DNA of 64,000 nt from NCBI GenBank assembly GCA_900318265.1, contig ONKA01000014.1, positions 22,449-86,448 of the forward strand. The letters run 5' to 3'. The DNA comes from an uncultured Bacteroidales bacterium. Its GTDB lineage: Bacteria; Bacteroidota; Bacteroidia; Bacteroidales; F082. Every line of letters starts with the position of its first letter. Position 1 is the first letter of the stretch. The notes beneath the pieces were generated by a model. It saw only the letters and a list, made by a program, of their open reading frames with translations, made no database searches and was not told the DNA's origin. The translations under genes and the position numbers were made by a program. This document shows, piece by piece, positions 22,393-56,235 of this stretch.

Positions 22393-22411
22393 TGTAGATT
22401 CATTAGGTTGG

Positions 22412-22458: not shown

Positions 22459-22534
22459 TGGTGACCCGGCTGGGGCTCGAACCCAGGACCCCAACATTAA
22501 AAGTGTTGTGCTCTACCTGCTGAGCTACCGAGTC
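22459..22534 (-). tRNA. tRNA-Lys (anticodon UUU)
   Basis: Reads GACTCGG acceptor, D-arm GCTC..GAGC, anticodon loop CTTTTAA (anticodon TTT), T-arm GGTTCGAGCCC and acceptor CCGGGTC, discriminator A and a genome-encoded CCA. The acceptor pairs with one G-U. Encoded CCA contrasts with the two tRNA-Ser genes in this window. Transcribed leftward from its own promoter and ended by the hairpin at 22422-22452. Confidence 0.97.
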
Positions 22535-38216: not shown

Positions 38217-38224
38217 TATTTTTG
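38217..38224 (+). promoter_or_regulatory. -7 promoter box for the structured leader RNA A
   Basis: TATTTTTG, with TTTG at 38190-38193 as the nearest -33 candidate (23 bases upstream, a little long). Confidence 0.5.
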
Positions 38225-38230
38225 CGTCAT

Positions 38231-38468
38231 AAACAAACGGGTAATAAATTGTAAAAACAGAACACAAAGCAAAATAAAGGAATCGTAAATAATTATAATC
38301 AAAGCATTTAGACAAATTACTTCTCTTCGAAAATTGGCGTTTACGAGAGAACACATATTTGATTTGTTGAAATGCTCACGTTGTAGCGTGAGCTAAATCA
38401 TTTTCTGTATGTGTGGGTTACGCCAATACCTCGAAGAGCGGAAAACGGATAGGTTCACGCTTTTTTTT
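38231..38468 (+). ncRNA. Structured leader RNA, copy A (unrecognised family)
   Basis: A long arm of five perfect helices runs from 38323 to 38438: P1 38323-38330/38431-38438 (CTCTTCGA), P2 38333-38340/38420-38427, P3 38351-38357/38408-38414, P4 38360-38365/38395-38400 and P5 38374-38380/38387-38393 (GCTCACG/CGTGAGC). A 3' tail TCACGC (38455-38460) followed by eight T can pair with the 3' strand of P5 (GCGTGA at 38386-38391). A similar RNA occurs at 46936-47187. It precedes the FISUMP lipoprotein gene by 50 bases. No known riboswitch class is recognised. Confidence 0.6.
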
Positions 38469-38518: not shown

Positions 38519-39214
38519 ATGAAAAGAGTAATAACGGCAATAGCTGCCTTAATGCTAATGATGATTTGCTTGGTGAATTGTACAAAAAAAGCAATTGACA
38601 ATAGTGGAAGTCTTAATGGCCATGATTTTGTTGATCTTGGCTTGCCGAGCGGAACCTTATGGGCGACTTGCAATGTGGGTGCCAATACACCAGAAGGTTG
38701 TGGTACTTATTTTGCTTGGGGTGAAATATGTCCTAAGAGATTATATGATTGGAGTACTTATAAGTATTGTAATAACGGTGATTGTACGCAGTTGACCAAA
38801 TATTGTGACAAGTCTCTTTTTGGTTTCAATAGTTTTACTGATGATTTGACCCAACTTGAGCCATCCGACGATGCTGCAACAATGAACTGGGGTGATGATT
38901 GGTGCATACCTACATTTGACCAATGGAGGGAACTATGTGTGAACACGACAGTTATTATTGATACGACTCTGAACGGTGTAAACGGGAAGCTCTTTGCCGC
39001 ATCTAATGGCAATAGCATTTTCCTTCCTGCTACAGGAGTGTTTTGTGATAGTGTTTTGATAAATTCAACCAATTACAATGGCGATAGTTATTGTGGCAAC
39101 TATTGGTCGAGTTCGCTCAATGGGTTTTCCCCAATTGGTGCTGAGGGCTTTTGGGAAACAGCATTCAGTCGGAAATATGGTCTTTCTATTCGCCCTGTCC
39201 GTTCCATCAAATAA
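38519..39214 (+). CDS. FISUMP-domain lipoprotein
   Basis: A 231-residue lipoprotein (signal MKRVITAIAALMLMMICLVNC, Cys21). The mature part is the Fibrobacter succinogenes major paralogous domain: HDFVDLGLPSGTLWATCNVGA, YFAWGEICPKRLYDWSTYKY, DAATMNWGDDWCIPTFDQW, and the end YWSSSLNG followed by GLSIRPVR. It is a C-type-lectin-like module commonly expanded in gut Bacteroidales and attached to surface proteins; ligands are unknown. Its leader RNA A is the notable neighbour. Confidence 0.9.
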   Translation: MKRVITAIAALMLMMICLVNCTKKAIDNSGSLNGHDFVDLGLPSGTLWATCNVGANTPEGCGTYFAWGEICPKRLYDWSTYKYCNNGDCTQLTKYCDKSLFGFNSFTDDLTQLEPSDDAATMNWGDDWCIPTFDQWRELCVNTTVIIDTTLNGVNGKLFAASNGNSIFLPATGVFCDSVLINSTNYNGDSYCGNYWSSSLNGFSPIGAEGFWETAFSRKYGLSIRPVRSIK

Positions 39215-46921: not shown

Positions 46922-46929
46922 TATATTTG
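46922..46929 (+). promoter_or_regulatory. -7 promoter box for structured leader RNA B
   Basis: TATATTTG; the RNA would begin near 46936. Confidence 0.6.
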
Positions 46930-46935
46930 CAAGCG

Positions 46936-47187
46936 GGTTGGGGGAGAAATCCCGACTCGGCAAGGAAGGCATTCCTATAGTCCCAAACTATGAAATCGCC
47001 AATTTTGAGTTACGAGGGACGAGGACTAATGCTCACTTTCTGTTTTTGTTATCAACCCGGTGTGTGAAACACCTGCTTGAGATAAAAACGAGCGTGAGGT
47101 ATTTGTTTCTTCAGTTCATTTCGTAACGGGTGTTTGGCGATACCTATAGTTTGATGGACTTGACAGAATCGAGTCTCACGCTTTTCT
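46936..47187 (+). ncRNA. Structured leader RNA, copy B (unrecognised family)
   Basis: Same plan as copy A. P1 AAACTATG/TATAGTTT (46985-46992/47145-47152), P2 TCGCCAA/TTGGCGA (46996-47002/47134-47140), an extra helix GTTACGA/TCGTAAC (47009-47015/47121-47127), P5 CTCAC/GTGAG (47032-47036/47094-47098) with an inserted hairpin. The tail CTCACGC (47175-47181) pairs with GCGTGAG (47092-47098) before TTTTCTT. Conserved with A: ACGAGrGA, AATGCTCAC, GCGTGAG, ATACC and TCACGCTTTT. Two further 5' hairpins occur at 46938-46960 and 46963-46976. It precedes a lipoprotein operon. Confidence 0.6.
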
Positions 47188-47263
47188 TGTGCCATACTAA
47201 AAAGTATAAAGTCGGCCTCGGTGGGATTTGCCGGCGATGAAGATGAAAAAGAAAGGACATATT

Positions 47264-48319
47264 ATGCCGATTAAACACAAAAAAGAGTTTCATTTTATCC
47301 AAATCAAAAAGTTTGCGATTTGTTTTTCCATGTTTTTATTATGCGTTGCCTGTGGAAACGATGGAAATCAAAGCAAGTTGGCAAATTATGGAAATGCAGT
47401 TGAAGAAGATGACAATACTGTTGTGAATGCCATCGAACAAGCCAAACCGACAATAATGGTTCTTCCGAGTGACAATTTGCTGCAAACTTATGACGCTTTG
47501 AAAACCGTGTCGTATAATGGGGCAGATTATTTGGATCGTGACTATTCCAAATATCTTTTGGCCAATCCTGACAATAAAGCTGTAATCTCAGTAATTCAGA
47601 ATGAGTTTGTGCAATTGGACTATCCTTTGACAGATCTAGAGCAGACACTGAAGTCTTTAAATAATCGCACTGCAACCGATTTGGCTGATGATGTGGCGCA
47701 AGATGCAAAGACTTTGCTTTTGCAGACGGCTTCTCCCGACATCATCATAGAATTGGATTATGATTGTAAATTTGACCCAACTGACCCTAATTTCCGTAAA
47801 GACCTGTCATATACCATAACAGCGTTTGATGCCTATACAAATAAGGCGTTTTCGTCTAAGACTATGAAAGAAAGCGTATCGGAGAACATTGCAAAGACTT
47901 TTTCACAATCCTTCCACAAAAACATGAAAGAGATGGAAACGGAAATTGGAAGATATTTCCGCAATATCGTTGTGTCGGGTCGAGAGATAACTGTACGGTT
48001 TACTGTGGCTAAAAAATCGAAAATCAATTTGGCGAGTGAGAGTATCACGGGCGACACCTATGCCGACTGGATTATGGACTATATGGACTTGAATACGAAA
48101 AAAGGTGCTTATAAACTGCAAAGCAACACCGATTATGAATTGTATTTCGTCAATGTTCGCATCCCTGCTTTGCAAGATGACGGAACGCAATACAACGCTT
48201 ATAAATGGGCTCGCGAACTGATACGAGAGTTTAAATCAGAGTGTGGCGTGAATTGTTCCAATAAAGTGCAAGGTTTGGGCGATGTCCAAATAATGATGAA
48301 CGGATTATTAAACAAATAA
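47264..48319 (+). CDS. Lipoprotein resembling DUF6175
   Basis: A 351-residue lipoprotein. Start at 47264 (MPIKHKKEFHFIQIKKFAIC) has AAAGGA seven bases upstream; alternative ATGs at 47237 and 47243 are in frame. The lipobox is LCVAC. Conserved stretches include PTIMVLPSDNLLQT, IIELDYD, AFDAYTNKAFSSKTMK, DLNTKKGAYKL, and DVQIMMNGLLNK at the end, reminiscent of DUF6175. First gene of a three-gene operon in AT-rich DNA behind leader RNA B. Function unknown; envelope or secreted. Confidence 0.65.
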   Translation: MPIKHKKEFHFIQIKKFAICFSMFLLCVACGNDGNQSKLANYGNAVEEDDNTVVNAIEQAKPTIMVLPSDNLLQTYDALKTVSYNGADYLDRDYSKYLLANPDNKAVISVIQNEFVQLDYPLTDLEQTLKSLNNRTATDLADDVAQDAKTLLLQTASPDIIIELDYDCKFDPTDPNFRKDLSYTITAFDAYTNKAFSSKTMKESVSENIAKTFSQSFHKNMKEMETEIGRYFRNIVVSGREITVRFTVAKKSKINLASESITGDTYADWIMDYMDLNTKKGAYKLQSNTDYELYFVNVRIPALQDDGTQYNAYKWARELIREFKSECGVNCSNKVQGLGDVQIMMNGLLNK

Positions 48320-56011: not shown

Positions 56012-56097
56012 CGGAGAGAAAGGGATTCGAACCCTTGGAACGCAAAGCGTTCAACGGTTTTCGAGACCGCCCCGATCGACCACTCCGGCATCTCTCC
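56012..56097 (-). tRNA. tRNA-Ser (anticodon CGA)
   Basis: An 86-base class II tRNA: acceptor GGAGAGA/TCTCTCC, anticodon loop CTCGAAA, variable arm GAACGC..GCGTTC, T-arm GGGTTCGAATCCC, discriminator G. CCA is not encoded. Confidence 0.95.
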
Positions 56098-56150: not shown

Positions 56151-56235
56151 CGGAGACAGAGGGATTCGAACCCCCGAAGCCTTTCGGCTTAACGGTTTTC
56201 AAGACCGCCGCTATCGACCACTCAGCCATATCTCC
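56151..56235 (-). tRNA. tRNA-Ser (anticodon UGA)
   Basis: An 85-base class II tRNA: acceptor GGAGATA/TGTCTCC with one G-U, anticodon loop CTTGAAA, variable arm AAGCC..GGCTT, T-arm GGGTTCGAATCCC. CCA is not encoded. It precedes the CGA gene in the transcript. Confidence 0.95.

Follow-up and report, generated by a model that had tools for sequence, protein, structure and literature searches.

The locus examined here raises a simple question: what is the structured RNA that appears to precede two lipoprotein genes lying 8.6 kb apart in an uncultured Bacteroidales bacterium, and what might it do? Within a 64,000-nucleotide stretch of this genome (contig ONKA01000014.1, positions 22,449 to 86,448; hereafter the window), positions 38323-38468 had been proposed, from the sequence alone, to form a leader RNA of no recognized class with a second copy at 46985-47187. 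We find that both copies belong to a multicopy family found across the phylum Bacteroidota, and that one strand of the RNA has two mutually exclusive pairing partners; both the family and this conserved second pairing, which is suggestive of a two-state attenuator, were overlooked in the original prediction. Judging from comparative sequence evidence, the leader is probably a transcription attenuator that acts in cis and can take either of two exclusive folds.

Two homologous leader RNAs in the window

Copy 1 is predicted to fold at -47.4 kcal/mol (z -4.17) and copy 2 (46985-47187) at -70.3 kcal/mol (z -5.51), and in neither case did any of 200 dinucleotide shuffles fold as low, which bears out the proposed structured leader. 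The predicted fold of copy 1 consists of four strong helices (P1, P2, P3, and a top hairpin), an imperfect terminator hairpin at 38438-38460, and the expected T8 tail. The earlier description of "five perfect helices" is thus slightly overstated: four are present, and in place of the fifth, of 6 bp, we see only pairings of 2-3 bp in the fold, or 5 bp by eye (38361-38365 with 38395-38399). A promoter had been placed about 100 bases upstream, and by motif a Bacteroidota -7 box does lie 99 nt 5' of position 38316. The downstream genes of both copies encode predicted exported proteins or lipoproteins, as had been claimed. For the first, which had been named a FISUMP protein, Pfam gave no match at E 1e-3; Fib_succ_major domains occur downstream in 4 of 108 scanned loci.

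Homology of the two copies was assessed with three covariance models, all of whose E-values are rough: R1, built from 27 copies; R2, a second model; and R3, built from 58 divergent sequences, none from the window's genus. With default filters, neither R1 (E up to 1) nor R2 (E up to 10) found copy 2; with filters off and 401 bases searched, R2 matched it at E 0.011. R3, trained without the genus, detects it at 46978-47188 with E 2.1e-6, and copy 2 is a genuine homologue of copy 1, in keeping with the second copy that had been reported.

A covarying arm

Covariation upon aligning more copies, which had been put forward as a check on the structure, proved strong. Three alignments were fitted to a model, and double-changed cells outnumbered those in shuffles in each: 1133 vs 316 in A7 (114 rows, including 13 reverse-strand matches that are inside its counts), 502 vs 150 in A6, and 503 vs 141 in A2, the Bacteroidales set (76 distinct rows built from 95 of 127 loci), in which 94.0% of cells pair and slid controls gave 50-95. 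A MAFFT alignment that was not structure-fitted (A1) gave 103 vs 40. Both sides have changed at all seven model pairs of P1 and all seven of P3, and double changes occur at all eight model pairs of P2 in A7; variants of P2 across the family include UUUGGCG/CGCCAAA, CUGGUA/UACCAG, UCGCCAA/UUGGCGA, and CUCGC/GCGAG. Unlike these covarying helices, the top hairpin (helix 5) is near-invariant, its changes being mostly G-U or one-sided, and this may be because its 3' strand has a second partner.

Two minor observations concern the arm. A small hairpin of the AAGC-NNNN-GCUU type is seen by eye directly 5' of it in many of our loci L156-L168 and L196-L215. The top hairpin holds ATGCTC, and a leader peptide was considered; it was dropped when the few frames read by eye stopped at different places.

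A second pairing for one strand of the top hairpin

The 3' strand of the top hairpin with its extension (X) can pair either with the 5' strand of that hairpin (Z) or with a segment abutting the U-tract (Y). Among 92 representatives of 117 distinct sequences, cognate X:Y duplexes averaged -18.5 kcal/mol and permuted ones -14.3 kcal/mol (0 of 10,000 permutations as strong), and after removal of the near-invariant core the same 92 gave -6.06 vs -4.27 kcal/mol (0 of 10,000). Three reverse-strand rows of A3, a mixed order set, had been dropped here, as well as from the gene-gap, export, promoter, and orientation tests below. For nine clusters of less than 68% identity drawn from 153 sequences, the values were -20.1 vs -14.7 kcal/mol (0 of 20,000; 21 of 20,000 without the core), a sign that X and Y coevolve, and for nine copies from the bacterium's own genome they were -18.9 vs -13.9 kcal/mol (6 of 20,000; with the core removed, 106 of 20,000). 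Scoring was possible for 130 of the 153 sequences, and in these the sixth base of X and its partner in Y form A-U 68 times, G-C 39 times, and G-U 19 times, with A-C never seen and other combinations four times.

Y is also the partner of W in a putative local terminator hairpin, whose predicted strength varies across the family. For the 28-nt hairpin directly 5' of the U-tract, the mean was -7.8 kcal/mol in A2 (76 sequences), -5.5 kcal/mol in A3 (27 sequences, some with no hairpin at all), and -1.85 kcal/mol in A4, a set of 14 members (13 from other parts of the class, with L169 from the same order), 11 of which were at -2.0 kcal/mol or weaker. The local hairpin is thus widespread without being universal, whereas X:Y is maintained. 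Of 184 members, 177 have a U-tract, a figure that is biased by selection, as it reflects how many of them were found. One natural variant (L022:1429-1555) lacks the entire top hairpin, Z and X together, and with it the switch strand, but keeps P1, P2, P3, and the terminator.

Promoter, orientation, and downstream genes

Upstream of the arm, at 15-160 nt, a TAnnTTTG box was found in 153 of 183 members, whereas Markov shuffles predict 23.1 and the reverse strand gave 32 (the set comprised 184 distinct members, 183 of them with enough upstream sequence, and rows overlapping an opposite-strand member were dropped). The longest nearby open reading frame (ORF) shared the strand of the RNA in 154 cases and lay opposite to it in 5; 16 had no such frame, and the remainder were too short to judge. 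Motif and orientation therefore suggest that the RNA sits between a promoter and a gene.

Alternatively, these might be stand-alone small RNAs that act in trans from their own promoter and terminator, with the downstream gene a mere neighbor or a recipient of read-through. The promoter motif and terminator do bracket a unit of roughly 200-250 nt, many copies occur per genome, X and Y could pair intermolecularly, and one copy (L117) is not followed by any gene on its own strand. The strong bias toward same-strand genes argues against this, as do the short gaps between RNA and gene start in Bacteroidales (medians of 62 nt in A2 and 84 nt in A3), though the gap is longer in A4 (227 nt), and we regard independent small RNAs as unlikely.

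By a crude test, the downstream proteins look exported at 85 of 115 loci (four without an ORF), compared with 117 of 308 other long ORFs, a control that surely includes some spurious frames. The genes themselves are unrelated, encoding lipoproteins, TonB receptors, C10 peptidases, PorV, LytTR proteins, and DNA methylases; the 108 proteins scanned out of 111 (short or cut-off ones of L005, L066, and L072 were left out) represent 64 Pfam families, the commonest found in 7 members. In the bacterium's own genome, the downstream products are an unassigned lipoprotein, a DUF6175 lipoprotein, a C10 peptidase, a PorV-like protein, Eco57I-type and EcoRI-type DNA methylases, and three unassigned proteins with signal-like starts. 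Given this diversity, a metabolite riboswitch serving one pathway was set aside. By eye, L003, L004, L005, L007, and L011 resemble one another from the leader through the spacer into the first codons of the signal peptide, as if leader and signal peptide had been duplicated together.

A candidate two-state attenuator

In the reading we favor, a cis-acting attenuator, the leader would be transcribed from the upstream promoter, pairing of Y with either X or W would terminate transcription, and an intact arm would permit read-through, at least where the local hairpin is absent. Several points weigh against it. Column counts for X:Y in A2 are weak, with 15 double-changed cells vs 8.8 (2 of 500) and two further measures at chance (387 and 431 of 500), and the X:Y permutation tests leave some shared descent in. 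Minimum-energy folds strongly favor the closed arm, at -52.6 kcal/mol vs a rough -31.7 for the X:Y state in A2 and -50.1 vs -36.9 in A4, and in three of the 14 members of A4 (L162, L164, and L169) the local hairpin reaches -4 to -7 kcal/mol. The closed arm and the local terminator can coexist in Bacteroidales, so that both states may terminate and X:Y need not be an antiterminator. Unrelated genes downstream are, moreover, unusual for attenuators. Finally, the own-genome copy 5' of the Eco57I-type methylase gene (L227:1501-1643) has the strongest X:Y of the nine, at -28 kcal/mol, but no U-tract.

Thin evidence points to a possible third pairing. In 144 of 153 sequences the 3' strand of P2 lies between GGU and ACC, and GGC with GCC takes their place in three (L176, L180, and L208); the search pattern stopped early in 28 rows and was misplaced in a few, and just the GGC..GCC and GGU..GCC cases and the 144 of 153 count are used. 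If paired, GGU and ACC would create a pseudoknot with P2 or, in the alternative state, a hairpin. The X:Y state could itself be a pseudoknotted aptamer, built from P1-P2-P3, X:Y, and GGU:ACC, in which case the leader would be a true ligand-binding riboswitch. Loop stretches GAAA, GGU, and ACC that appear conserved by eye would fit this, together with the GGU and ACC counts just given, but independent GGU:ACC replacements are few, as counted with a crude pattern, and the many downstream protein families share no pathway, making a ligand-binding riboswitch rather improbable.

Bacteroidota are dominant members of the gut community and also common in soils and waters; to our knowledge, few of their RNA regulators are understood. 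We tentatively raise the possibility, in which we have distinctly less confidence than in attenuation itself, that the leader is a global Bacteroidota RNA switch, its two states and up to 22 copies per genome subjecting exported proteins, surface receptors, and genes for DNA modification to a common signal read by a pseudoknotted aptamer or a factor associated with RNA polymerase. A structured leader in such numbers, recognizable well beyond the order yet matching no Rfam family, would provide a widespread layer of control over exposed and secreted products, and its second pairing offers a precise, testable switching hypothesis.

Distribution of the family

The search for homologues that had been proposed returned many more members across Bacteroidota; neither a lack of homologues, nor a lack of covariation, nor identity with a known repeat was seen. 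A DNA search of the bacterium's own genome gave one further close copy, 5' of a C10 peptidase gene, and DNA-level matches were present in 28 of 99 same-genus genomes (own genome included), while R1 found members in 72 of the 99. An exact pattern of the terminator matched 66 named genome-record stretches, all with Bacteroidota-type titles (Bacteroidales, Bacteroidia, Prevotellaceae, Paludibacteraceae, Tannerella, and others) and many from ruminant guts by those titles; R1 matched all 66 sites, 65 at full length and one cut by the stretch end. R2 found members in at least 112 of 393 same-order genomes, with seven candidates scored per genome, and in 23 of 296 genomes of the phylum. R3 found them in 29 of the 30 same-genus genomes sampled, where copy numbers reach 22, in 27 of 41 genomes from a distant genus within the class, presumably Flavobacterium, and, again with seven candidates scored per genome, in at least 58 of 395 phylum genomes, with nothing in the other 337. 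At least nine copies are present in the own genome: eight from the R3 genome search (weakest E 8e-5) and copy 2 of the window. In L197, two copies stand in tandem about 65 nt apart (269-409 and 474-634).

Such dispersal, with up to 22 copies, raises the possibility of a mobile or recombining DNA cassette, made of promoter, leader, and at times signal peptide, that spreads as a unit and in which RNA structure merely serves expression. Near-identical RNAs before different sequences (for example L012 and L013) and the position of some sampled copies near contig ends are consistent with such an origin. However, in five genomes the similarity between paralogues spans about 88-300 nt at the RNA, plus a few short pieces elsewhere (one pair in genome G692, at 1637 nt, excepted), the own-genome copies are highly diverged yet retain their pairing, and one exact terminator pattern was found in no viral contig; we consider a cassette of this kind doubtful.

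Relationship to known RNAs

Leaders of trp-type attenuators have exclusive hairpins, a strand with two partners, and a U-tract, and are placed between promoter and gene. The leader RNA shares the two-partner strand, the U-tract, and the position, but differs in that no conserved leader peptide was seen by eye, X pairs with the terminator loop and 3' strand, and unrelated genes follow. Terminator-platform riboswitches have a covarying arm with conserved internal loops and then an intrinsic terminator; the leader RNA resembles them in its arm and loops, which a putative terminator follows, but it has no common downstream pathway.

As had been claimed, the RNA matches no recognized class in the loci tested: with Rfam 15, cmscan at gathering scores gave no match on the RNA in the window or 20 loci, and permissive E-values gave no credible family on it at the site or in 34 loci. 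Overlaps below threshold with Parabacteroides-1 and BTnc201 (14-16 bits, E 1.6 and 8.8) are at chance level, and the idea that this is a known Rfam RNA falling short of thresholds, which these overlaps might suggest, is refuted as it stands and very improbable. As far as titles and the beginnings of abstracts show, no paper listed in full-text searches of an open-access library describes the RNA, and none of the Bacteroidetes names tried turned up in PMC11109978 or PMC8632094. Flavo-1 RNA (RF01705) is likewise a Bacteroidetes motif, but 14 loci bearing the leader RNA gave no match to it at E up to 1. PMC9723704 describes 64 structured 5' regions in Flavobacterium psychrophilum, several of which coincide with Flavo-1 matches, and the tables of that paper may include a member of the present family.

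The DUF805 and DUF805b RNAs (RF03081 and RF02914), labeled cis-regulatory in Rfam, lie a short distance 3' of the leader RNA in a few loci. They differ from it in spanning 68 and 35 positions, and their matches fall downstream of the leader RNA and not on it. Of 30 fetched best-matching DUF805 loci, 2 carry the leader RNA upstream and 28 have no R3 match at E 0.1. The distance from the leader RNA is about 44 to 240 nt in L079:2927-2994, L125:5587-5653, L096:405-437, L259:1501-1569, and L262:1501-1569, and their occurrence after it in these five loci suggests tandem leader elements.

Features of the window

Table 1. Coordinates of the two leader RNAs, their parts, and adjacent features in the window
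Feature	Position	Strand	Remarks
-7 promoter box TATTTTTG (TAnnTTTG type)	38217-38224	+	99 nt 5' of 38316
Leader RNA copy 1 (arm P1-P2-P3-P4-top hairpin, terminator, T8)	38316-38468	+	R1 142 bits; R3 105.5 bits
P1 5' strand	38323-38330	+	Partner 38431-38438; 7 pairs in fold (38324-38330 with 38431-38437), one more possible
P2 5' strand	38333-38340	+	Partner 38420-38427; 8 pairs
P3 5' strand	38351-38358	+	Partner 38407-38414; 8 pairs, one G-U
Top hairpin 5' strand (helix 5)	38374-38381	+	Partner 38386-38393; 8 pairs, one G-U
X (top hairpin 3' strand and extension)	38386-38399	+	Able to pair with Z or Y; duplex tests
GGU 5' of P2 3' strand	38416-38418	+	Complementary to ACC 38428-38430
W (local terminator hairpin 5' strand)	38438-38446	+	Helix 6 of A2; weak or absent in most of A4 and some Bacteroidales
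Y (terminator loop and 3' strand)	38446-38460	+	Complementary to X; duplex and covariation tests
U-tract (T8)	38461-38468	+	Read from sequence
Exported (lipo)protein gene 3' of copy 1	38519-39214	+	No Pfam match at E 1e-3
-7 promoter box TATATTTG of copy 2	46922-46929	+	56 nt 5' of 46978
Leader RNA copy 2 (longer top hairpin)	46978-47188	+	R3 38.5 bits, E 2.1e-6
DUF6175 lipoprotein gene 3' of copy 2	47237-48319	+	PF19672, E 6.4e-64

Besides copy 1, R1 gave a second match in the window, at 22404 (E 0.059), which we judged to be due to chance. The window also carries three tRNA genes on the minus strand, at 22462-22534, 56012-56097, and 56151-56235.
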